Assembly (NCBI GenBank): GCA_023511725.1
Contig: JAIMAY010000023.1
Span: 1-43,952, forward strand
Source: Alicyclobacillus sp.
Lineage (GTDB): Bacteria; Bacillota; Bacilli; Alicyclobacillales; Alicyclobacillaceae
Length of the DNA stretch: 43,952 bases
Direction of reading: 5' to 3'
Program-made: the position numbers and the translations under genes
Notes under the pieces: model-generated
Database searches by the model: none
What the model was told of the DNA's origin: nothing
What the model saw: the letters and a program-made list of their open reading frames with translations, nothing else
Shown here: positions 14,890-41,927 of the stretch, one piece after another
Layout of the letters: the number at the start of each line of letters is the position of its first letter
How positions within the stretch are numbered: the stretch's first letter is position 1

Positions 14890-14917
14890 GTAGGTGCGGA
14901 TGGTACAGAAGGACGGG

Positions 14918-29499: not shown

Positions 29500-30198
29500 T
29501 TGGCAGTTACTTCTCGCTGGACCAAGGTCCAGTTTGTGACAGCGGAAGAGGCTGCGCGGGTGGTCCGGCGCGGCCAACGGGTGATGGTGAGCGGGTTCGG
29601 TGCATCAGGTATTCCAGAAGCGGTGCTCGCCGCGCTCGCCGATTGGCCGGAGGCGACAGACCTCACGGTCTTCAGCAACAACATCACCGCCGGCACGGGT
29701 TTGGAGCGGTTGTTCGAGCTCGGGCGGATCCGCAAAGTGATTGGCACGTATTTCACCAGCAATCCGAAAGTGGTGCGAGCGTGGCGGGAGGGGCGGATCG
29801 AGATCGAGCTGATGTGCCAGGGCACGTTCGCCGAAGCCCTGCGGCTGGGCGGCGCGGGAATCCCCGCCTTCTACACCCCCACGGGCGCGGGGACACCGCT
29901 GGCGGAAGGGAAGGAAACGCGCGTGTTCGATGGTCGGCCGTGTGTGCTGGAACGGAGCTTAACGGCCGATGTGGCGCTGGTGCGCGCACATCGCGCGGAC
30001 GAAGCGGGTAACGTGGTGTACCGAAAAGCTGCGCGTCAATTCGGCCCGCTGATGGCCACAGCGGCGAAGGTGACCATCGTCGAGGTGGACGAGGTGGTGC
30101 CGGTGGGGGTGCTGGACCCGGAGGCCATTGTCACGCCGTTCGTGTTCGTCGACATGATTGTGGTAAGGGGGGATCGGTATGCCGGTGGCTCTACCTGA
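29500..30198 (+). CDS. CoA-transferase subunit A (3-oxoacid type)
   Basis: A 232-residue class I CoA-transferase alpha subunit. TTG 29500 follows GGGGAGGGGAGAAGG. Family motifs are the early glycine-rich VMVSGFGASGIPEAVL, SNNITAGTGLERLFELGRI and GAGIPAFYTPTGAGTPLAEGKE. It pairs with the next gene, with which it overlaps by 20 bases. Such enzymes move CoA between a CoA ester and a free acid (succinyl-CoA:3-oxoacid in ScoA/ScoB, adipyl in PcaI/PcaJ). The substrate is not readable. It is 61 bases after mocA and probably in the same operon. Confidence 0.92.
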   Translation: MAVTSRWTKVQFVTAEEAARVVRRGQRVMVSGFGASGIPEAVLAALADWPEATDLTVFSNNITAGTGLERLFELGRIRKVIGTYFTSNPKVVRAWREGRIEIELMCQGTFAEALRLGGAGIPAFYTPTGAGTPLAEGKETRVFDGRPCVLERSLTADVALVRAHRADEAGNVVYRKAARQFGPLMATAAKVTIVEVDEVVPVGVLDPEAIVTPFVFVDMIVVRGDRYAGGST

Positions 30199-30910
30199 GT
30201 CCCTTCGTCTAACGAAGGCTCAGGTGCGGCATTACATCGCTTGGAGGTGTGCACGGGAGCTGCAGGATGGCGTGGTCAACCTGGGGATTGGCATTCCCAT
30301 TCTGGTCGCGGACTACTTCGACCCGAGCCGGCGCATCGCCCTGCACAGCGAGAACGGGATCCTCGGGGTGGGGCCATCGCCGTCACCGGATGCTGCCGAT
30401 CCCGACCTCATCAACGCCAGCAAGCTTCCCGTGACGGAGTTGCCGTACACCTCCTATTTCGACAGCGCCCTGTCGTTCGCGATGATGCGAGGCGGGCATC
30501 TGGACGCCACCGTGGTGGGAGGACTGCAGGTAGCGGAGAACGGAGATCTCGCGAGCTGGGCGGTCCCCGGTGAGGACGTGCTGGGCGTCGGTGGCGTGAT
30601 GGACCTGGTGGTGGGCGCGCGGCGTGTGATTGTGGCGATGACCCACCTGTCGGAAGACGGCGAGCCGAAGCTGGTGTCTCGCTGCACCTATCCGCTCACA
30701 GCGCCCGGCTGTGTCGACACCGTCGTCACGGAATTCGCCGTGTTCAAATTCCGCGAGGGTCGCATGTGGCTCACCGAGCTGATTGAGGAGATGGATCTGG
30801 ACCTACTTCGGCGGATCACGCCGGCGTCGTTTTCGGTGGCGCCTGATCTGCAGCGCAGAGGGCGCGCTGGCGTCCTACCTCTCCTGAAGTGTTATCGGCA
30901 ACAAGGGTAG
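30179..30910 (+). CDS. CoA-transferase subunit B (3-oxoacid type)
   Basis: A 243-residue beta subunit starting at ATG 30179 inside the end of subunit A, with AAGGGGGGA just upstream. The catalytic glutamate, which forms the glutamyl-CoA thioester, is Glu58 in [21 protein letters not shown] and [14 protein letters not shown] are family blocks. The neighbouring molybdenum hydroxylase suggests that both act in breakdown of one substrate, for example a hydroxylated acid that must be activated as its CoA ester; this is inference. Confidence 0.92.
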
Positions 30911-32122: not shown

Positions 32123-33340
32123 TTAGGCGGTTTCTTCAACTGTCACTTTTGGACCAAGCTTCTCCAACGACTGAATGTGACGCCGAATGGTTGCCTGCCG
32201 CTTACGCTTGTCTTGGTGCATCGGACCTGGATCCTTGTAGTCAGTACCGGAGACCAGCATATGGTATATCACGACTAGCATATAGTGACCCACTGCTACG
32301 GCTGCCTTTTTGGACCCCCGTCGGGCGGCGATACGGTGATACTTGGCAGACAGATAGGTGTTCCTGGTTCTGGCGGCTGAACGGGCGGCTTCAACCAGGG
32401 CCTCTCGTAACCAACGATCTCCCTTGCGGGTCTTCCCACTTCGTCGCTTGCCCGCACTCTCGTCGTTGCCCGGACACATACCGGCCCACGAGGCAAGGTG
32501 CTTTGCTGTGGGGAACCGGCTCATGTCAGTGCCTATCTCTGCCAGAATCAACTCAGCCGTCTGTCTGCCAATCCCCGGTATCGTGTCGAGCCGCCGGAGG
32601 TCTTCCTCAAAAGGGCGCATCCGCTTCTCTATTTCTTCACTGACCTCGTCGATCAACTCGTCGAGCTCGTCAATATGCCTCAGCTGCATAGCGAGCATCT
32701 TCTGTTGGTGCGGTCGAACCACGCCGTGCAGGGCCCGTTCCAGCTCCTTGACCTTGTCACGAAGCCGACCTTTAACCAGATGTTTCACATCTGCGGGATC
32801 GAGCGTCCCACTGACCAGTTCGCTCAAGATGGCTCGCCCTGAAACCCCAACCACGTTGCTCGCCACGGAAGCCAACTTGATATTGGCCCCTTCAAGAACC
32901 TTCTGTAGCCGGTTGACCTCGCTGGCTCGTTCACGAATCAGGGACTTTCGATACCGAACCAGTTCCCGCAATTCACGCTGGTTCCGGTCCGGGATGTAAC
33001 TGCCCCGGAGTAAGCCGTGGCGCAACAGCTCAGCTATCCATTCGGCGTCCCGGACGTCCGTCTTGCGACCCGGAACCTGTTTGATATGCTGGGCGTTGAC
33101 CACGAGTACCTCTACGTCCTGATCCTCCAACAGGTTGTAAATGGGCTTCCAATAGACGCCGGTACTCTCCATGGCCACGTGAGTGCACCCATGACCGAGG
33201 ATCCATTCCACCATACATTCCAGTTCATCGGTCATGGTACCAAACGTTCGAATCTCCTTCGTCTCCGGCGTGATGGCGCAGGCAACAACATTGTTTTTGT
33301 GGACGTCCAATCCACAGCATCGCTCGTGCACGACACGCAT
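32123..33340 (-). CDS. IS110-family DEDD transposase
   Basis: A 405-residue recombinase starting at ATG 33340 ([15 protein letters not shown]); the frame is open to TTG 33526 but that extension would cover the non-coding end. The RuvC-like N-terminus has the acidic set Asp12 (CGLDVHK), Glu58 (AMESTG), Asp95 and Asp98 (KTDVRDAEW). A central coiled region follows (about 140-280). The C-terminal Tnp domain has [29 protein letters not shown] and the serine-containing [13 protein letters not shown] region that holds the catalytic Ser in this family. All key residues are present, so the enzyme looks active. In IS110 elements the recombinase uses a bridge RNA from the element's own non-coding end to choose donor and target. 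Confidence 0.95.
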
Positions 33341-33545
33341 AGATGGCCACCCCATGATAGAAGTGACAGCCACATGGCGACCGATCGATAGGAATTCTAC
33401 CGTACGTGCTTCCCGGAAACGGGAGCGACAATTCGCGGTGCTCCAGGTCGGCCGCTCCGTCCGTCTTAACCACGGACTCGAAGTACCAAGCGGATTCGAG
33501 CTCTGCGTGGCTGCTAGGTAACACAATAAAATACCTGCAACGCAT
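33341..33545 (-). ncRNA. Candidate bridge RNA region of the IS110 element
   Basis: This stretch, upstream of the transposase on its own strand, is where IS110-group elements encode the bridge RNA. It is about 200 bases, is rich in possible stems (for example ACCTGGAG with CTCC..., CCGTTTCCGGG, GTGGC with GCCAT near the start codon) and has no better gene. I cannot define its ends or its target and donor loops by eye. Confidence 0.35.
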
Positions 33546-33722: not shown

Positions 33723-33815
33723 TGGTCGCAGACCAAAGTATACCCGGCATCCGTGTTTGACACGGCAGCGCGATTTGTCATACCTATTGATAACTTGTCG
33801 GACCAATATTATAAT
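33723..33815 (+). promoter_or_regulatory. Promoter and FadR-type operators of the gntR gene
   Basis: TTGATA (33787-33792), 17 bases, TATAAT (33810-33815) is a near-consensus sigma-A promoter. TTGTCGGACCA, starting at 33795, lies in the spacer and matches the FadR-subfamily operator TNGTNNNACNA exactly. TTGTCATACCT (33775-33785) upstream matches but for the last base, and TGGTC-GCA-GACCA (33723-33735) is a perfect palindrome with similar half-sites. The layout suggests autorepression by the encoded GntR protein. Confidence 0.65.
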
Positions 33816-33841
33816 TAATGCAACGAAAAGGAGGTAGAAGG

Positions 33842-34522
33842 TTGTCGGAAACCCAGGAATTCGATCTGCAGCAAAAAGTGATGGAGGTGATTGTCGAAAG
33901 ACTGGCCACTGGTGAGCGACTCCCTCCGGAAAAGAAGCTGGCCGCGGACCTCGGCGTAAGCCGCTCCGCTTTGCGCGAAGTGTTGCGAGCGTTTCAAGCG
34001 AGCGGGTTGGTCGTGGCTCTGCAGGGGAGTGGTTGGTATGCCCAGCCGCCTGATGTCAGCGCTTCCATTGCCGACGGATGGAACATTCTTCTACGGACGC
34101 AGCCGAACGTGCTGCCACAATTGATGGACATTCGCTATGTTCTAGAAGTGGGCTTCCTCGAAAGAGCCATTGAGACGCTGGGGATTTCAGATTTGCAGAA
34201 AATGAGGGACCTAACTGACAGAATGGTAGCGAAAGCCCGGAGAGGCGAAGAGTTTGTGGAGGAAGATAGGGAGTTTCATCGCATTTTGTTTTCCCGTACA
34301 GGAAACATTCTACTGGAGCAGCTGCTGAAGGCGTTTTGGGACCTGTTTAACCAAATCGAAGACCTGTCGTTCAGACGGTCGAGCGATCTGGTGCGTAGCG
34401 CCGAGCTTCACCAGCAATTGTTTCAAGCCATTTTGACAAAGGACCGTGAATCGGCGACCCGCTATCTTCGGGAGCAATTCACAGATATCCGTCGCAGACT
34501 TGATGGAAGCCAAACACTATAG
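33842..34522 (+). CDS. FadR-subfamily GntR transcription regulator
   Basis: A 226-residue regulator. TTG 33842 is chosen since AAAGGAGG lies 7 bases upstream; the in-frame ATG 33818 lies before that ribosome site. The winged helix (about 1-70) has GERLPPEKKLAADLGVSRSALREVLRAF. The C-terminal all-helical FCD domain (about 85-220) has the metal-binding pattern Asp/His (REFHRILF, and SAELHQQLFQAI). FCD regulators bind sugar acids and organic acids and usually repress the adjacent catabolic operon. Neighbours predict a ligand related to a sugar or uronate. Confidence 0.9.
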   Translation: MSETQEFDLQQKVMEVIVERLATGERLPPEKKLAADLGVSRSALREVLRAFQASGLVVALQGSGWYAQPPDVSASIADGWNILLRTQPNVLPQLMDIRYVLEVGFLERAIETLGISDLQKMRDLTDRMVAKARRGEEFVEEDREFHRILFSRTGNILLEQLLKAFWDLFNQIEDLSFRRSSDLVRSAELHQQLFQAILTKDRESATRYLREQFTDIRRRLDGSQTL

Positions 34523-34559
34523 CGTACCCGCGTCGTTATGTAATAGAATTTTAAGAATA

Positions 34560-34587
34560 TTGTACCCGCTTTTCGACACCTTAGACT
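34560..34587 (+). promoter_or_regulatory. Candidate promoter of the ABC transporter operon
   Basis: TTGTAC (34560-34565), 16 bases, TAGACT (34582-34587), 39 bases before the lipoprotein start. No clear FadR-type operator is seen here, so the operon may also be read from the gntR promoter. Confidence 0.4.
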
Positions 34588-34626
34588 GACCTGAAGGTTA
34601 AGTGACTGTGTTGAGGGGGGTAAACA

Positions 34627-35922
34627 ATGTTCCATTTTTGGAAATCATTTCGGAGGCAAACCAGAGTTGTCATCTCGTCGTTGACGGTATTGATGATGAT
34701 TTTAGTCACCGCGTGTGGTACAAGCAATTCGGGATCGAACACGACGGCAACCAATCAGGTGCAAACCGTCAACTACTGGTACTGGCTTGATGATCCGTCG
34801 CACAACACGATCCAGGATTTGATTGACCAGTTCAACATGACCCACCCGAATATCCACGTGGTGGGGCGGTTGATCCCGTTCAATAACTACCAGCAGACGT
34901 TGATCAACGCGGTGTCATCGGGCAATGCGCCAGACGCCGCCCGCTTCAAGGATTGGTGGGTAGGGCAATTCGCCCAAAACCATCTGCTGACCCCGTTGGA
35001 CTCGTACACAAAGCAGTGGCAATACACTTCAGACATCCTCCCCCAGTATTGGGATACGGGTCGTACTTCATCTAGTTCACCGATTTATATGCTTCCCAAT
35101 GAATATATCACGTTCTACCTTTACTACCGAAAAGACTTATTTGCGAAGGCGCACCTGACACCTCCAAAAACTTTTGATGAGTTCCTGAGCGACGCGCAGA
35201 AGTTGACCGATCCGGCGAAACACCAGTATGGATTTGCTATGCGTGGCGGCGCCGGTGGTCAGGACCAGTGGTATGCATTCATGCTGGCGGGCGGTGCGCG
35301 GATGGTGGACAGTAACGGGAACATCGTGGTCAACAACCAGAAAGCTGTTCAAGTGAACCAGTGGTACATCGACTTGTTCAGAAAATACCACGTGGCTCCG
35401 CCATCGTCGGTCACCGACTCATATGCTCAACTGCTTGCCGACTTTGAAAACGGAACGGTGGCAATGATGGCCCATCACATCGGCAGCTATGCGCTGTTGC
35501 AGCAAAAACTGGGCGACAACCTGGGTGTCGTTCCGATGCCCCAGGCAGATCCTTCTAACCCAGCCACCATGGGCTCCATGTCAGGCAATGTCATCATGGA
35601 TTCCAGCCAACACAAAACGGCTGCCTGGACTTTCATCTCGTGGCTATCGAGTCCAACGGCGATTGACGTGTTGGATCGATCTACGAATGCACAATTGCCG
35701 GTCTTGCAGTCGGTGGCGAACGAACCTTTCTTTCAGAGCAACACCGGTTGGAAAGTTGCCATAGAAGAAGAGAAGTACGCGCACGTGTGGCCGCCGCTGC
35801 CGGGTGTCGGCGCTGTCTCCGGGCATGTTTGGGAGCAGACCATGGACCAGGCCCTTCTCGGGCAAATCTCGAGCCAACAGATGCTGGACCAGATTGCCGC
35901 AACGCTGAAGAGCGGCCAGTAA
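34627..35922 (+). CDS. Sugar ABC transporter solute-binding lipoprotein
   Basis: A 431-residue extracellular binding protein starting at ATG 34627 behind GAGGGGGG. The signal is a basic N-terminus, a hydrophobic segment and the lipobox VTAC with Cys30 as the lipidated residue. A Ser/Thr/Asn-rich linker follows, then the cluster-1 (MalE/UgpB-like) fold: VNYWYWLDDPSHNTIQDLIDQFN, FNNYQQTLINAVSSGNAPDAA and the later SGNVIMDSSQHKTAAWTFISWLSS. This family binds oligosaccharides, sugars and polyols. The two downstream permeases complete the importer; no ATP-binding subunit is encoded here, so a shared MsmK-type ATPase elsewhere must drive it. Confidence 0.92.
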   Translation: MFHFWKSFRRQTRVVISSLTVLMMILVTACGTSNSGSNTTATNQVQTVNYWYWLDDPSHNTIQDLIDQFNMTHPNIHVVGRLIPFNNYQQTLINAVSSGNAPDAARFKDWWVGQFAQNHLLTPLDSYTKQWQYTSDILPQYWDTGRTSSSSPIYMLPNEYITFYLYYRKDLFAKAHLTPPKTFDEFLSDAQKLTDPAKHQYGFAMRGGAGGQDQWYAFMLAGGARMVDSNGNIVVNNQKAVQVNQWYIDLFRKYHVAPPSSVTDSYAQLLADFENGTVAMMAHHIGSYALLQQKLGDNLGVVPMPQADPSNPATMGSMSGNVIMDSSQHKTAAWTFISWLSSPTAIDVLDRSTNAQLPVLQSVANEPFFQSNTGWKVAIEEEKYAHVWPPLPGVGAVSGHVWEQTMDQALLGQISSQQMLDQIAATLKSGQ

Positions 35923-35940
35923 AGAGGGGGTGTCGACTAG

Positions 35941-35970
35941 GTGACGGGAGCGGAGCTCAGTCCCCGTCAC
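35941..35970 (+). repeat. Intercistronic hairpin between lipoprotein and permease genes
   Basis: GTGACGGG (35941-35948) pairs perfectly with CCCGTCAC (35963-35970), and GAGC/GCTC can pair inside. No T-run follows. Hairpins here often protect the upstream mRNA and raise binding protein over permease levels. Confidence 0.55.
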
Positions 35971-36013
35971 CAGTCGTTACTCACTCTGGACCGCGCGCAG
36001 AAGGGGGGGTTTC

Positions 36014-36937
36014 ATGGACACAGTGACCCAGGTCGCCATCGCCGATGTGAAGCGAAGGCATCGGGAGAGCGGCTTGAGATCCATCTGGTACCTGCTGCCG
36101 GCGGGAGTGATTGTCGCTCTTGTAATCGGCTATCCGGTTTTGCGGGCCGTTATGCTCAGTTTCTTCAGGTTTAGTCCCCTTGGTGGCAGTGTTACGTTCG
36201 TTGGCATGCACAACTACGTACAAGTTTTGACGTCCAGGCAGTTTGGAGCAGCCGCTCTGCACTCTGTCATTTGGACGTTTGGGGTGGTTGCGTTTCAGTT
36301 TGTGTTCGGTCTAATTGGGGCGGTGCTACTCAACCAGAAGTTTAGAGGCCGCGGGATTGTCCGGGGACTGGTGCTGATCCCCTGGGCCACGCCGAGTGTG
36401 CTTGCCGCAATGATGTGGATGTGGATTCTCGATGCGAACTACGGAGTGTTGAATGATCTGTTGACCCGGCTTGGGCTTGCCTTTCTGGCCCGTCCCTGGT
36501 TTTCACAGCCGCACACTGCGCTCCCGGCGTTGATGCTGATTGATGTGTGGCAGGGGATTCCGTTCTTCGCCGTAATGCTTCTTGCCGCTATGCAGACCAT
36601 TCCCGACGACCTGGTGGAGGCCTCGAAATTGGACGGCGCCACTGCCTGGAAGACGTTTTGGAGCGTCAAATTCCCGATCATTTTGCCAACCTGTCTGATC
36701 ACCACGTTGCTGAGAATTGTGTGGACCGCAAGCTATATGGATTTGATTCTAATCATTACTCAAGGGGGACCGGGATACGCTTCGCTCACCATCCCTGCGG
36801 ACGCATACTACACGGCTTACTCGGATTTGAATTTTGGGGGGGCAACGGCGATGGCAGTGATTCAGGCGATTGTATTGCTCGGGGTCGTCATGGTGTATCT
36901 CAAGCTTCTGTCCAAACAGGGGATCCTCGACAAATGA
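36014..36937 (+). CDS. Sugar ABC transporter permease (MalF/UgpA type)
   Basis: A 307-residue membrane protein starting at ATG 36014 behind AAGGGGGGG. It has six predicted membrane segments, the first at about 21-42 (WYLLPAGVIVALVIGYPVL). The EAA loop, which contacts the ATPase, is VEASKLDGATAWKTFWSVKFPIILP (about 201-225). It forms the channel with the next gene, whose start overlaps its stop. Confidence 0.93.
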   Translation: MDTVTQVAIADVKRRHRESGLRSIWYLLPAGVIVALVIGYPVLRAVMLSFFRFSPLGGSVTFVGMHNYVQVLTSRQFGAAALHSVIWTFGVVAFQFVFGLIGAVLLNQKFRGRGIVRGLVLIPWATPSVLAAMMWMWILDANYGVLNDLLTRLGLAFLARPWFSQPHTALPALMLIDVWQGIPFFAVMLLAAMQTIPDDLVEASKLDGATAWKTFWSVKFPIILPTCLITTLLRIVWTASYMDLILIITQGGPGYASLTIPADAYYTAYSDLNFGGATAMAVIQAIVLLGVVMVYLKLLSKQGILDK

Positions 36938-37770
36938 TCATCGTGGGTCATGTGCTGCGCCGATCGGTGTTGTGGATCCTGCTCTTCTGCTGGCTTGCCT
37001 TTGCACTCGGGCCGTATCTGTGGATGTTCCTTACGTCCGTGAAACCCGCGAGCGAACTGAGCACTATCCCGGTTCACTACCTGCCGCAGCACTGGACGTT
37101 CGCGGCATATGCGGAGTTGTTTCATACGACCCCGTTTCTCAAGTACATGACGCATAGCATCATCGTCGCGGTCGTCACGGCTTTAGCTACGCTCGTGTTG
37201 GCTGTCCCGGCTGGATTCAGTTTGTCGCGGCATCGGTTCAGACCGAAAAAGATCGTGTTGTCGGCGTTAGTCGCGTCACAATTCCTACCTTCCATTTTGT
37301 TGGTGCTTGCGCTGTTTCCCATCATGCAGAGTCTTGGGCTACTAAACCGTATGATTGGACTGGTGCTGGTCTACACCGGGTTTGTCACACCGTTCACTAT
37401 TTGGCTCGTCAAAGGGTTTGTGGACGGAATCCCGAAAGAAATGGATGAAGCGGCGCTGGTGGATGGGTGCAGTGAACTCAAGGTCATTTGGTACGTGCTC
37501 CTTCCAGTGCTGACGCCAGGACTGGTCGCGGCAGCCGCGTACATCATTATTTTCTCGTGGAACGAGTTCCTCTTTGCCTTGACATTCGCGTCGAAGGACT
37601 CCGTTGCCACGCTCCCTGTGGGCTTAAACACGTTCATTGGGGACTATGTGACACGCTGGGATCTGCTGACGGCAGGTGGAGTAGTGTCTGCAATCCCCAT
37701 CCTGATCTTTTTCACCTTGGTGCAACGGAGGCTGATCAGCGGACTAACATCGGGCGCCGTGAAAAGTTGA
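36934..37770 (+). CDS. Sugar ABC transporter permease (MalG/UgpE type)
   Basis: A 278-residue membrane protein. ATG 36934 (MIIVGHVLRRSVLW) overlaps the previous stop; the frame is open much further upstream, but that lies within the other permease gene. Six membrane segments are predicted. The EAA loop is MDEAALVDGCSELKVIWYVLLPVLTPG (about 170-196). It ends 19 bases before the transketolase gene, tying import and metabolism into one transcript. Confidence 0.93.
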   Translation: MIIVGHVLRRSVLWILLFCWLAFALGPYLWMFLTSVKPASELSTIPVHYLPQHWTFAAYAELFHTTPFLKYMTHSIIVAVVTALATLVLAVPAGFSLSRHRFRPKKIVLSALVASQFLPSILLVLALFPIMQSLGLLNRMIGLVLVYTGFVTPFTIWLVKGFVDGIPKEMDEAALVDGCSELKVIWYVLLPVLTPGLVAAAAYIIIFSWNEFLFALTFASKDSVATLPVGLNTFIGDYVTRWDLLTAGGVVSAIPILIFFTLVQRRLISGLTSGAVKS

Positions 37771-37789
37771 AGCCAGTGAGGTGTATAGC

Positions 37790-38635
37790 ATGACGGTGGA
37801 TATGGTAGAGGTGGCGCGGCGAATCCGTCGCGACGTGATTCAAATGATTGCTGCAAGCCAATCCGGGCATCCGGGCGGGGCGCTGGGCGCGGCGGAGATC
37901 CTTTCTGTACTGTATTTTGACAAGATGAACCACAATCCAAAGAACCCGGACTGGCCGGCCAGGGACAGGTTCGTTCTCAGCAACGGGCACATTTGCGCCG
38001 CCCTATACTCGGCTCTCGCGCGGAGCGGGTACTTCCCGGTTGAAGAACTGCTAACGTTTCGCCGACTGAACTCCCGATTGCAGGGACATCCCTCGAGGCA
38101 CGACCTGCCCGGGATTGAGACGGCCGCAGGGCCGCTCGGACAAGGGCTGTCCATCGCCAACGGGATGGCATTGGGACTGCGGCTGCAGAATGTGGATGCA
38201 AAGGTGTACTGCCTTGTCGGCGACGGGGAGATTCAGGAAGGGCAGTTCTGGGAGGCCGCGATGACATCGGCTCATTACCGGCTGAACAACCTGGCTCTCA
38301 TCCTGAGCTGGAACGGACTGCAGATTGACGGCGCCGTGGCCGACGTGAAGAACATGGAGCCGATTGCCGCCAAGTTTCAGGCGTTTGGTTGGAATGTGGT
38401 GGAGATTGATGGACACGACATCCCCCAAATTCAACAGGCGTTTGAAGAGTTCAGCCGATCCCACAATCAACCAACCGCCATCATCGCTCGCACGGTTATG
38501 GGCAAGGGTGTGTCCTTCATGGAGGACAAGGCGCTGTGGCATGGGAAAGCACCGTCTCGCGATGAGGCTGCAAGGGCACTGCAAGAGATTGGACCGAGTT
38601 CATTCGGCGAGGATCTCGACATCCAGTTCGCGTAA
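37790..38635 (+). CDS. Transketolase, N-terminal (ThDP-binding) subunit
   Basis: A 281-residue half-transketolase. ATG 37790 (MTVDMVEVARRIRRD) has GTGAGGTG upstream; GTG 37781 is possible. The pyrophosphate-binding domain is complete: SGHPGG (25-30), SNGH (64-67), GPLGQG (115-120) and the ThDP motif GDGEIQEG (144-151) with the Mg ligand Asn175. The residue before the usual aromatic-Asn pair reads SWNG instead of the common DxN, a small departure. Transketolases move a two-carbon ketol unit between sugar phosphates. Split forms are known in archaea and in several specialised sugar pathways. The C-terminal partner follows after 13 bases. Confidence 0.92.
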   Translation: MTVDMVEVARRIRRDVIQMIAASQSGHPGGALGAAEILSVLYFDKMNHNPKNPDWPARDRFVLSNGHICAALYSALARSGYFPVEELLTFRRLNSRLQGHPSRHDLPGIETAAGPLGQGLSIANGMALGLRLQNVDAKVYCLVGDGEIQEGQFWEAAMTSAHYRLNNLALILSWNGLQIDGAVADVKNMEPIAAKFQAFGWNVVEIDGHDIPQIQQAFEEFSRSHNQPTAIIARTVMGKGVSFMEDKALWHGKAPSRDEAARALQEIGPSSFGEDLDIQFA

Positions 38636-38648
38636 GGGAGGATATCTC

Positions 38649-39608
38649 ATGACGGTTGCGAGTGGCCGCGATGGATTTGGTCAGGCACTGGTCGATCTCG
38701 GTGCCCAAAATCACCGGGTCGTTGCACTGACCGCAGATTTGGCGGAATCCGTGAGAGTGCACTGGTTTGCAGAGAAATATCCGGAGCGGTTCTTTCAGAT
38801 TGGCATTGCCGAGCAGGACATGATTGGCACCGCTGCGGGGCTCGCCTTGACCGGGCTGATCCCGTTTGCTACTACGTTCGCGGTGTTCGCCGCGCATCGT
38901 GCGAACGAGCAGATTCGTTTGGCCTGCTGCTACAACCGGGCCAACGTGAAAATTGCCGTAAGCCATGGTGGGGTGACGGTGGGCGAGGACGGAGCGACGC
39001 ACCAGGCGTTGGAAGATATTGCCGCGATGCGGGTTCTGCCCGAAATGACTGTATTGGTGCCGGCCGATGCCGCAGAGGCGAGGCTGGCTACGATAGCGGC
39101 CGCCGAACTAGAAGGCCCCGTTTACCTCAGGTTGGGGCGGACACCGGTTCCGACCGTGACGGACGGCACTGGTGACTTTACGATTGGCAAGGCCAAGGTG
39201 CTGCGAGCGGGGAGGGACGCCACCGTGATCGCCTGCGGGGTGATGGTAGGCGTCGCCCTGGAGGCGGCGGACAGGCTGAGCCGAGAGGGGATATCGGTTG
39301 GCGTGGTGAATATGCACACCATCAAGCCCCTTGACGTGGAGGCCGTTGTACGTGCAGCAGAGGAAACTGGATGTGTGGTCACGGCGGAAGAACACTCGGT
39401 GCTCGGCGGTCTCGGGAGTGCGGTATGCGAAGCGTTGGCTGAGCGTGCTCCCGTGCCGGTCGTCCGAGTGGGGACGCGCGATACGTTTGGTGAATCGGGC
39501 ACACCGGATGAACTCCTGCGGAAGTACGGCTTAACCTGCGACGCCGTGGAGGCAGCTGTCAAGCTGGCGGTCGCGAAGAAAGAGAGCTTGTCCGCGGTTC
39601 ATCGGTAA
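38649..39608 (+). CDS. Transketolase, C-terminal (pyrimidine-binding) subunit
   Basis: A 319-residue partner. ATG 38649 (MTVASGRDGFGQALVDLG) has GGGAGGATAT upstream. The pyrimidine-binding domain holds the cofactor-activating Glu55 in GIAEQDMIG and the AVSHGGVTVGEDGATHQALED block; the C-terminal domain (about 195-310) has VVTAEEHSVLGGLGSAV. With the N-terminal subunit it should form an active heterotetramer of about 600 residues per pair. A DXP-synthase-like or pyruvate dehydrogenase-like activity is less likely given the domain split and GPLGQG motif upstream. Confidence 0.92.
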   Translation: MTVASGRDGFGQALVDLGAQNHRVVALTADLAESVRVHWFAEKYPERFFQIGIAEQDMIGTAAGLALTGLIPFATTFAVFAAHRANEQIRLACCYNRANVKIAVSHGGVTVGEDGATHQALEDIAAMRVLPEMTVLVPADAAEARLATIAAAELEGPVYLRLGRTPVPTVTDGTGDFTIGKAKVLRAGRDATVIACGVMVGVALEAADRLSREGISVGVVNMHTIKPLDVEAVVRAAEETGCVVTAEEHSVLGGLGSAVCEALAERAPVPVVRVGTRDTFGESGTPDELLRKYGLTCDAVEAAVKLAVAKKESLSAVHR

Positions 39609-39637
39609 CCACACATGATTTTCGGGAGGGAAAGGAC

Positions 39638-40453
39638 ATGCTCTTCAAAAAGCACACGACCGTTCAAGATACTCCCGGCTATCACGAACTGATTGAAGGC
39701 GAGGCGGAGCACCTTCACTTACTGCGGTTCGGTCTGCTGAACCTGACGGCCGAATATCCGTCGGTCACACGCAACAGCGGCAACGAGGAAATCGGTCTGG
39801 TCATCTTGACAGGTCGCGTCACGGTTCACGTGGGCAACCAAGAGTTTGCCCATCTCGGTGGACGAGAGTCTGTGTTTACCGCACCCGCAACTACGGTGTA
39901 TGTGCCGATTCACACGGAGTATACCGTGACAGTAGAAAGTGAGGTTGCGTCTGTCGCCGTCTGCCGGTCCGCCGCCTCAAAGTCCTATGAACCATTCGTC
40001 GTGCAGCCAGACGACGTTCTCGTTGCGCTGAGGGGGCAGAACAACTGGCGGCGTGAAGTACGGGATATCATGACAGGGAACGTCGAAGGCCGGGTTGATC
40101 GCTTGGTCATTGGCGAAACCATCAACTATCCCGGCGAGTGGTCCGGCTACCCTCCGCACCGGCATGAGGAAGACAGGCCACCCGAAGAACTTAGCTTTGA
40201 AGAAATCTACTACTTTAAGGTTGAACCGAAAGACGGTTTCGGCATCCAAGTCCACTACGGGTCAAAGTACCACGAAGATGCGGGTTACGTGATCCAGGAC
40301 GGCGACGCGTTCGCGATACCGGACGGATTCCATCCGGTCGTCGCCGCGGGCGGATACCGAGTCTACTACCTCTGGTTCATGGCGGGTCCATCGGGAAGGA
40401 CGTTGACGCCTTTCGAGGATCCGAAGCATCGATGGGTAAAGGATTTGAAATGA
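39638..40453 (+). CDS. iolB: IolB/KduI-family isomerase (5-deoxyglucuronate isomerase type)
   Basis: A 271-residue bicupin starting at ATG 39638 behind GGGAGGG. Metal ligands expected for IolB are all visible: His174 and His176 in YPPHRHEED, a Glu in SFEEIYYF (188-189) and His232 in DGFHPV. The GFGIQVHY segment between them is typical of IolB. IolB interconverts 5-deoxy-glucuronate and 2-deoxy-5-keto-gluconate in myo-inositol breakdown; KduI relatives act on 4-deoxy-5-keto-uronate. None of the other inositol genes (iolG, iolE, iolD, iolC, iolJ, iolA) is next to it, so the real substrate here is open. Confidence 0.85.
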   Translation: MLFKKHTTVQDTPGYHELIEGEAEHLHLLRFGLLNLTAEYPSVTRNSGNEEIGLVILTGRVTVHVGNQEFAHLGGRESVFTAPATTVYVPIHTEYTVTVESEVASVAVCRSAASKSYEPFVVQPDDVLVALRGQNNWRREVRDIMTGNVEGRVDRLVIGETINYPGEWSGYPPHRHEEDRPPEELSFEEIYYFKVEPKDGFGIQVHYGSKYHEDAGYVIQDGDAFAIPDGFHPVVAAGGYRVYYLWFMAGPSGRTLTPFEDPKHRWVKDLK

Positions 40454-40771: not shown

Positions 40772-41887
40772 TCATGCGCTCCGGCTCTGCCGCAATGCCT
40801 CTGCACCCCGCTGGGCGATCACGCGGCTTGCGGCTAGGTCCCCGTTGCACTGGTACCCGCACTCTTTGCAGCGAAACCGATGGTGCTTCTGGCTTCGGTT
40901 GGTGGATTCACAGTGCCCGCATCGTGGGCACGTTTCGCTCGTGCCCGCCGGATCGACGAAGACCACTGCGATTTCGGCTTCCTCCGCCTTGCAACGGATG
41001 AACTCCGCCAATTGCCGGAATGCCCAACTCATCCTCCAGTACCGCTCCTTCAGTCGGAACCGGACGGACAGGTTGGTGCTTGTCAGGTCTTCGAGAACGA
41101 TGAGGGGACGCTTACCCTGGGCCTGCGCGAATCGGATCACTTGCCGGGCGATCTTGTGGTTCGTGTCCGTCATGAAACGGGATTCTCTTCGGCCGATGGC
41201 TGCGAGGCGGCGCTTGGCCGAGCGAGTGCCTTTGCGCTGAAGCTGTTGGCGCAGACGGATGTAGCGTAGGCGGGTCTGTTTGACGCGCCCGCCGCGGATG
41301 AACAGAACCTTCCGCCCGGACGAAGCGGTGACCAAAAACCGCATGCCCTGGTCAACACCGATAACGGCGTCAAAGTCCTGCGACGGCTCCGGGACGGTTT
41401 TCGACACCGACACATGCAAGAACCAGCCGTTGCGCTTCTTGACGAGTTCAGCCGCGCCGAACGTCCAGCCGTCATGCAGGTAACGAACATACGGAGGCTG
41501 GACGTGATAGGGAATCCGAAGCCGTCCACCCAGCGTGGAGATGTGGAGCAACCCGCCGCGCAGAACATAGTTGTTCCACTGGAACACGGGCTTCGGGTGT
41601 TTGAATCTCGCCTGGGCGCCGGGGTTGCCGTTGGACTTCATGCTCTTGTGCGTCGCCGCGACGGTTCGGCAGACGGTGCAAGCCATCTGGGATCGCAGTC
41701 CGAACTCCAGGCGCAGAGTGCGATACACCGCGCGGTGCAACTGAAAGGCCGAGCGGATTCGCCGCTCGAACGCAACTTGGCTGGCGTAGTCGAGCGCTCT
41801 TCGGTTAGCGTCCATAGTTCGCTCCAGGATCGCGGCCTGTTCTTCTGTAGGCTGGAGTTTGAGAAGGATGGTGCGCGTCAGTTCCAC
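40772..41887 (-). CDS. tnpB: TnpB RNA-guided nuclease (IS605 OrfB family)
   Basis: A 371-residue protein. GTG 41887 (MELTRTILLKLQPTEEQ) is chosen since GGGAGGTG lies 8 bases upstream; the longer frame from GTG 41908 includes that site. The RuvC nuclease residues are all present: Asp179 (VIGVDQG), Glu266 (VLEDLTS) and Asp350 (CNGDLAASR). The zinc ribbon has CPRCG (320, 323) and CKECG (340, 343). TnpB proteins are guided by an RNA made from the right end of their element and cut DNA next to a short motif, which helps the element persist. No TnpA transposase is adjacent, so it is a solitary, non-autonomous unit. Confidence 0.95.
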   Translation of the reverse strand: MELTRTILLKLQPTEEQAAILERTMDANRRALDYASQVAFERRIRSAFQLHRAVYRTLRLEFGLRSQMACTVCRTVAATHKSMKSNGNPGAQARFKHPKPVFQWNNYVLRGGLLHISTLGGRLRIPYHVQPPYVRYLHDGWTFGAAELVKKRNGWFLHVSVSKTVPEPSQDFDAVIGVDQGMRFLVTASSGRKVLFIRGGRVKQTRLRYIRLRQQLQRKGTRSAKRRLAAIGRRESRFMTDTNHKIARQVIRFAQAQGKRPLIVLEDLTSTNLSVRFRLKERYWRMSWAFRQLAEFIRCKAEEAEIAVVFVDPAGTSETCPRCGHCESTNRSQKHHRFRCKECGYQCNGDLAASRVIAQRGAEALRQSRSA

Positions 41888-41890
41888 AGC

Positions 41891-41927
41891 CCCTGCACCT
41901 CCCTTCACTCGAAGGAAGGTTGCAGGG
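41891..41927 (-). promoter_or_regulatory. Hairpin over the tnpB ribosome site
   Basis: CCCTGCA (41891-41897) pairs with TGCAGGG (41921-41927), and CCTTC (41902-41906) with GAAGG (41911-41915) inside. The tnpB GGGAGGTG lies in this structure, so folding would hide it and keep TnpB levels low. Confidence 0.5.

Follow-up and report, generated by a model that had tools for sequence, protein, structure and literature searches.

What might a sugar operon achieve that joins an importer directly to a split transketolase (TK) and an IolB-like isomerase? The question is raised by seven plus-strand genes at positions 33842-40453 of a 43,952-nt stretch of an Alicyclobacillus sp. genome (G000; contig JAIMAY010000023.1), the whole of which was analysed and is called the window here. 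An earlier note on this DNA had described importer genes, a two-gene TK and an IolB/KduI protein under a FadR-type regulator; all seven genes are present in that order, and Pfam domains back each of them. The absence of a kinase, dehydrogenase and aldolase, likewise stated there, holds for the operon. The note had further proposed that a sugar is isomerised and its ketose cleaved by two-carbon transfer. This route survives, in a version for which comparison favours a uronate as the sugar, whereas the inositol frame in which the isomerase had been viewed fails. In our reading, whose chances we put just short of even, the operon takes up a hexuronate, the isomerase turns it into a ketouronate, and TK then moves two carbons of the latter onto glyceraldehyde-3-phosphate, in what would be the carboxylate equivalent of the sulfo-TK pathway.

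The same seven genes occur in the same order in G047 (locus L044), a genome of the same taxonomic order as the source, and, with one gene added, in Cohnella laeviribosi DSM 21336 (G430, locus L027); the survey of relatives suggested in the note thus returned the set. From regulator through isomerase, identities to the window proteins are 52, 67, 71, 66, 71, 69 and 62% in G047 and 49, 60, 63, 66, 70, 74 and 46% in Cohnella. The additional Cohnella gene, between those of the TK C-terminal chain (TKC) and the isomerase, encodes a xylose-isomerase-like TIM-barrel protein (PF01261) with weak similarity to IolE and hydroxypyruvate isomerase. Since the order is kept in both genomes, the operon is, by this comparison, a functional unit and not a chance arrangement. 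It is also rare, as judged from searches with its solute-binding protein: close matches were obtained in 2 of 398 genomes of the class (E-values up to 1e-80), 2 of 59 of the taxonomic order (1e-60), 1 of 394 of the family of G061 (1e-80) and 1 of 37 of the genus of Cohnella laeviribosi (1e-60). All of these searches together return only G000, G047 and G430, a search of this kind being blind to TK-isomerase pairs that carry another importer.

The isomerase belongs with a uronate-associated group of proteins and not with the IolB enzymes of inositol (iol) operons, an assignment that is well supported at the level of sequence. A tree was calculated for 50 IolB-like proteins, comprising 30 of 54 matches (those with more surrounding sequence available, among them that of the window; 24 matches lie outside the tree) and all 20 further loci. 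The 12 proteins from iol operons form one clade (support 100/100); on the other side of this branch are 19 proteins encoded beside UxaA or UxaB, 15 whose context is different or unclear, and four from TK operons. The placement of the window/G047 pair outside the iol clade has a branch support of 100/100. Eleven alignment columns, chosen without the operon rows as at least 85% conserved within each group and different between groups, split the 34 Uxa-type or other rows from the 12 iol rows, and both the window protein and the first isomerase of G047 carry the non-iol letter at 11 of 11. Group-specific residues of the window protein include F120, T161, N163 and W246. The window isomerase keeps 43 of the 46 columns that are invariant in the non-iol group, the exceptions being K175R, D177E and Y231F; G047 shares D177E and Y231F, and the Cohnella isomerase keeps all 46. 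All metal ligands had been ascribed to the protein in the note: the alignment is consistent with this, the predicted ligand positions (H174, H176, H232 and E184/E188/E189) being conserved, but the three substitutions put their neighbours off an otherwise invariant pattern. The structure model (predicted local distance difference test score, pLDDT, 90.7) has 2qjv as its best solved match, followed by KduI, the 4-deoxy-5-keto-uronate isomerase. KduI is of the same Pfam family, similar in fold and likewise linked to acid-sugar chemistry; it differs in its low identity (about 14-18% in the structural match), and no kduD lies beside the window isomerase.

An inositol enzyme, converting 5-deoxyglucuronate to 2-deoxy-5-keto-gluconate with TK cleavage replacing IolC/IolJ, is very improbable at this locus. 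The window protein does share Pfam family PF04962 and the bicupin fold with IolB and passes the NCBIfam model for it, TIGR04378 (224.2 bits against a cut-off of 205), and the approximately unbiased (AU) test does not reject a tree that unites the window/G047 pair with the iol clade (p 0.187). The model is not discriminating, however, since all nine Uxa-associated proteins scanned pass too (220-254 bits; 245 for the one in the window's genome), compared with 384 bits for the single iol-operon IolB scanned; the scan covered nine of the 19 tree rows of the Uxa-associated kind and one of the 12 from iol operons. Neither an iol-type IolB nor IolD was found over cut-off in the window's genome, none of the IolC, D, E, G and A genes lies in the operon, and no IolC, D, E or G matches were obtained around the orthologous operons in 16.8 kb at L027 and in 14 kb at L044, where the search is limited by the end of the stretch about 0.4 kb past the last isomerase gene. 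One aldehyde dehydrogenase upstream of the G047 operon is IolA-like at 31% identity. A complete iol cluster in relatives that holds these genes, which the note had named as evidence to the contrary, was looked for in these stretches and not found. We dropped the inositol reading on account of the tree, the diagnostic columns and the lack of iol genes; the view of an inositol enzyme out of place gives way to that of a protein nearer a group often encoded beside UxaA/UxaB.

This group has probably replaced UxaC (PF02614) in many Bacilli, as is suggested by the finding that the gene for tagaturonate reductase (UxaB) often has an IolB-like gene, less often a UxaC gene and never both within 12 kb. 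UxaB is over cut-off in 43 of 101 relatives; within 12 kb of it, 28 have an IolB-like gene, 9 have UxaC and none has both, where IolB-like means at least 40% identity to the window protein, a line set after the tree had been seen. Genome-wide, and by the same definition, 26 of the 43 have only the IolB-like gene, 11 only UxaC, four both (G047, G052, G094, G096) and two neither (G008, G050), and the IolB-like gene is present in 0 of the 58 genomes without UxaB. UxaC was not found in the window's genome, the control for this search matching in 7 of 14 genomes. That genome holds instead a second cluster (L003, 8466-14041; G000:C35) with an altronate/galactarate-type dehydratase, an IolB-like protein, a tagaturonate reductase (over cut-off), a protein resembling 2-keto-3-deoxygluconate (KDG) kinase, a 2-keto-3-deoxy-6-phosphogluconate (KDPG) aldolase and a TRAP transporter. 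Thus one isomerase copy adjoins UxaA/UxaB, and its paralogue in the window, 45% identical to it, adjoins TK. With the hexuronate isomerase route (UxaC, UxaB, UxaA, UxuAB, KdgK, KdgA) the operon would share the first step, from uronate to ketouronate, and an isomerase group that adjoins UxaA/UxaB in relatives and in the genome itself; it differs in that the isomerase is of another family than UxaC and in that TK takes the place of a reductase or dehydratase. A report of IolB-like proteins replacing UxaC was not found in our literature searches, which took in PMC5808187 and PMC12838403. The nearest published precedent found is that E. coli KduI raised the conversion of galacturonate and glucuronate in extracts (PMC3578941). 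Inositol use is probably over-annotated, since the NCBI model names such proteins 5-deoxy-glucuronate isomerase.

Some further features of these neighbourhoods may be recorded. At L003, L024, L031, L032, L048, L050, L073, L074 and L076-L081, the place next to UxaA and/or UxaB where UxaC is expected is taken by an IolB-like gene. A gene for an M24/creatinase-fold protein is found at L003 17138-18217 and recurs near the uronate-group isomerase at L025, L026, L028, L048, L050, L073, L074, L077 and L081; we know of no reason why a peptidase-like protein should lie there. Big_3-domain proteins are encoded upstream of the isomerase at L028 (3481-7596) and L037 (3340-4572), one of them with a right-handed beta helix, perhaps pectate-lyase-like, which fits a pectin context.

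The TK of the operon is distinct and dedicated, as comparison with other split TKs shows. Its N-terminal chain (TKN) and its pyrimidine-binding and C-terminal chain are encoded by adjacent genes, and the catalytic positions are kept (TKN H27, H67, H100 and H251; TKC R8, H119 and R165), with roles that we take to be those known from E. coli and yeast TK. As a full-length TK of 668 amino acids is encoded elsewhere in the genome (L053), the split enzyme is an extra one. Close split TKs occur in 289 of 398 genomes drawn from the phylum (1e-90, its own included). The three operon TKs stand apart from the 29 closest others in a clade of their own (100/100, stem 0.76); no IolB-like gene was found beside these 29 within at most about 1.5 kb on each side, the 29 being the neighbourhoods inspected out of 288 other matching genomes. 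Where the 29 show a conservation of 85% or more, all three operon TKs differ at 11 columns of TKC and 17 of TKN. Among these changes, and at otherwise invariant positions, are K34E and T36V/I beside S35, itself replaced by A in Cohnella; S35 is presumably the substrate-phosphate-binding serine of the E. coli and human TK structures, and this pattern might fit a TK with a changed, unphosphorylated donor. The closest solved relative of TKC is 6yaj, the C chain of the Carboxydothermus hydrogenoformans split TK (6yaj/6yak; PMC7661550); the two-chain architecture is shared, but the Carboxydothermus enzyme is the sole TK of its organism (PMC7661550), whereas the operon TK is accessory, operon-bound and of a divergent clade.

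TK and isomerase also appear to be linked through their history. The isomerase of the Cohnella TK operon is a different member of the uronate group, sister to a Uxa-associated protein (97/89), and a single clade of the three operon isomerases is rejected by the AU test (p-AU 0.038), for a group named after the tree had been seen. The operon thus seems to have been joined with an isomerase of this type twice, once with the window/G047 type and once with the Cohnella type, and this apparent double joining is why we read the two enzymes as functionally linked.

These data bear on a simpler explanation, which we consider unlikely: the operon would import and isomerise a uronate for the UxaAB-KDG route encoded elsewhere, and its TK would add to the pentose-phosphate capacity, serving pentoses released from that plant polymer, and leave the ketouronate untouched. 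The genome does hold a UxaA/UxaB/KDG-type cluster, the general catalytic residues of the operon TKs are kept, and TKs are known from other sugar operons, such as the T. maritima ribose operon, which contains predicted D-arabinose enzymes and a TK (PMC3750489). The Uxa cluster, however, has its own isomerase, to which the window paralogue has the limited identity given above, and none of the seven operon genes encodes a pentose enzyme. Furthermore, in the three genomes found, the TK clade goes specifically with this type of operon, and the apparent exchange of one same-group isomerase for another in Cohnella suggests that TK and isomerase act in sequence.

A second explanation, again unlikely and rated marginally below the first, is the wider version given in the note: the substrate would be a neutral or deoxy aldose (a pentose or a 6-deoxyhexose), the cupin having drifted from uronates, and its ketose would be cut by TK. 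MalFG-type importers mostly carry neutral sugars, and many PDB relatives of the binding protein are named maltose- or sugar-type binders; the model of the binding protein itself (pLDDT 39.6, from a five-sequence alignment) is such that no ligand was inferred from it. The changes at three otherwise invariant residues beside the metal ligands would also fit, but the window isomerase keeps the other 43 invariant residues together with all eleven group-specific columns, and its Cohnella counterpart departs from none of the 46. Further hints at neutral sugars come from the surroundings of the Cohnella operon, on one side of which lies a rhamnulokinase-like gene (L122; 508 bits, cut-off 528). Directly behind the operon are lactate-oxidation genes with a GntR-type regulator (L027 8967-12677), among them LutB over cut-off; for its neighbours, which match profiles below threshold or not at all, we assume the names LutA and LutC. 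These genes look like a separate unit because they begin 171 bp past the isomerase gene and have a GntR-type regulator of their own; they were considered as part of the pathway and set aside.

The hexuronate reading follows the logic of the sulfo-TK pathway (SqvD, SqwGH, SqwI, SqwF), in which an unphosphorylated aldose is imported, isomerised and cut by a dedicated split TK; there, the ketose is cleaved onto glyceraldehyde-3-phosphate (PMC9594981, PMC11659671), and SqwI is proposed to isomerise the sulfo-compound for a second TK turn (PMC9594981). A variant in which the IolB-like protein isomerises sulfoquinovose in place of SqvD is nevertheless highly unlikely. A split TK together with an ABC importer, as in sulfo-TK clusters (PMC11659671, PMC12890257), is present here too, but SqvD (PF02952), SqwI (PF02502) and SqvB (DUF4867) are absent from the operon, as are a sulfoacetaldehyde enzyme, a sulfonate exporter and a sulfoquinovosidase, the rest of the genome not having been searched for them. 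With no other sulfo-TK gene in the operon, this reading was dropped. That sulfo-TK clusters use other isomerases had been noted correctly, SqvD and SqwI being of the Pfam families just given (PMC9594981). The isomerase here is an IolB/KduI cupin, and the proposed substrate is a carboxylate and not a sulfonate. Sulfo-TK is reported from strict anaerobes (PMC12890257), whereas the operon is found in the class of Cohnella. The operon would thus follow a logic like that of sulfo-TK but use another family of isomerase and, probably, another class of substrate.

The pathway that we infer, from the activity of the isomerase and the identity of the sugar to the action of TK on a ketouronate, could operate in the following manner. 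The importer, with an ATPase from elsewhere, would take up the uronate, and the FadR-type protein would repress the operon until a uronate is present. The "IolB" protein would then act as a metal-dependent hexuronate aldose-ketose isomerase and yield a 2-keto-uronate. D-Fructuronate, formed from D-glucuronate or D-mannuronate, is the likeliest product; as transketolases prefer ketoses of the D-threo configuration at C3/C4, it is favoured over D-tagaturonate as a donor. On the split TK, glyceraldehyde-3-phosphate would receive the CH2OH-CO unit of the ketouronate and become xylulose-5-phosphate, while a four-carbon aldehyde acid (erythruronate) is left behind. In some relatives, a fourth step may follow, in which an extra isomerase or epimerase acts on the four-carbon acid and a second TK turn yields glyoxylate, analogous to the proposal for SqwI. 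In Cohnella, the candidate for this step is the PF01261 protein, which would isomerise the four-carbon acid; in G047, it is a second IolB-like gene behind the operon isomerase (L044 414-1163, minus strand; long branch), a weak candidate. An aldehyde dehydrogenase gene about 0.8 kb upstream of the G047 operon (L044 8703-10142, minus strand), with lactaldehyde, phosphonoacetaldehyde and sulfoacetaldehyde dehydrogenases as best sub-threshold matches, might encode an enzyme for a C4 or C2 aldehyde acid, or else go with the adjoining genes.

Several observations weigh against this pathway or parts of it. At the level of the isomerase, the AU result given above speaks against our assignment, although the branch support for it is 100/100, and 15 of the 34 non-iol, non-operon tree rows are without a Uxa gene within 8 kb in the stretch available. 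The UxaB counts are not phylogenetically independent, and Fisher values on them overstate the significance, given the kinship of the genomes and a 40% line drawn with the tree already in view. The columns of K175R, D177E and Y231F, which adjoin metal ligands, are invariant in the iol IolBs too, so that the window isomerase and the Uxa-associated enzymes may not share a substrate; the operon isomerase may prefer another acid sugar. Plain glucuronate would be redundant for the G047 operon because a single cluster elsewhere in G047 already encodes UxaC, mannonate dehydratase, mannonate oxidoreductase, KDPG aldolase and beta-glucuronidase, and the TK operon there may be for a different acid sugar. 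In TK, K34E sets a negative charge near the pocket expected for the distal acid group. T. maritima TK takes galacturonate and glucuronate as acceptors (PMC8317047), but for a TK using a ketouronate as donor no published example was found. The window operon contains neither a glycosidase nor an enzyme for the four-carbon product. Step 4 is weakened by the second IolB-like protein of G047, first assumed to be a second isomerase: its metal-ligand histidine H176 is replaced by K, which makes this role doubtful, and the protein may be dead. The G047 contig ends about 0.4 kb past its gene.

The features of the locus are compiled in the table below. The last five genes of the operon overlap or are separated by at most 29 bp, the gaps from the MalG-type permease through TKN and TKC to the isomerase being 19, 13 and 29 bp. 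The binding protein and the two permeases make up an importer of the MalFG (CUT1) type; no transport ATPase is encoded among the operon genes, and the importer presumably relies on a shared one from another locus. The operon was probably acquired and is apparently mobile, given its lower G+C content (0.53-0.60, against 0.58-0.66 for most of the window) and its position between two transposase-like genes. At a greater distance, the window contains an S-adenosylmethionine (SAM) riboswitch (RF00162; 14737-14839, plus strand), followed by an open reading frame of 1161 amino acids that begins at 14894, and, upstream of the IS110 element, a two-subunit coenzyme A transferase (PF01144 twice; 29500-30910, plus strand).

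Features of the TK-isomerase operon and its borders in the window
Feature	Coordinates	Strand	Basis or remark
IS110-family transposase flanking the operon	32123..33526	-	on the regulator side
Sigma-70-type promoter TTGATA-17-TATAAT	33787..33815	+	consensus scan, 11/12 matches
FadR/GntR-type regulator	33842..34522	+	GntR + FCD domains; TTG start
ABC (ATP-binding cassette)-importer solute-binding protein	34627..35922	+	SBP_bac_1
MalF/UgpA-type permease	36014..36937	+	BPD_transp_1
MalG-type permease	36934..37770	+	BPD_transp_1; start overlaps stop of MalF/UgpA-type permease gene
Split TK, N-terminal, thiamine-pyrophosphate-binding chain (TKN)	37790..38635	+	Transketolase_N
Split TK, C-terminal chain (TKC), pyrimidine-binding + C	38649..39608	+	Transket_pyr + Transketolase_C
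IolB/KduI-family bicupin isomerase, uronate-associated group	39638..40453	+	KduI/IolB (PF04962)
IS605 OrfB/TnpB-like gene flanking the operon	40772..41908	-	on the isomerase side

The putative promoter is followed by the sequence AAAGGAGGT, and together with the ribosome-binding site it puts the start of the regulator at the TTG at 33842, in agreement with the start given in the note; an in-frame ATG at 33818 is too near the -10 box to serve. Promoter sites of this kind are about as frequent in the real as in shuffled sequence (4 versus 3.6). The promoter spacer contains the heptamer GTCGGAC, an operator-like half-palindrome, and related heptamers occupy the same spacer position in G047 (GTCTGAC) and Cohnella (GTCATAC), as aligned by eye. 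By itself the motif is no more frequent in the window than chance predicts (8 occurrences against 8.1 expected); its shared place in the three promoters, judged by eye, is all that marks it as a likely site for the FadR-type regulator.

Taken together, the operon possibly represents an undescribed uronate breakdown in two-carbon units, kinase-free and redox-neutral, through an IolB-family isomerase and a dedicated split TK, although we rate the odds of this somewhat below even. If true, it would add a TK branch to sugar-acid catabolism in which neither a kinase nor a dehydrogenase is needed to reach xylulose-5-phosphate. If the uronate-associated group has indeed taken the place of UxaC, many Bacilli proteins now labelled 5-deoxyglucuronate isomerase would be hexuronate isomerases, and the label of the family would be corrected.

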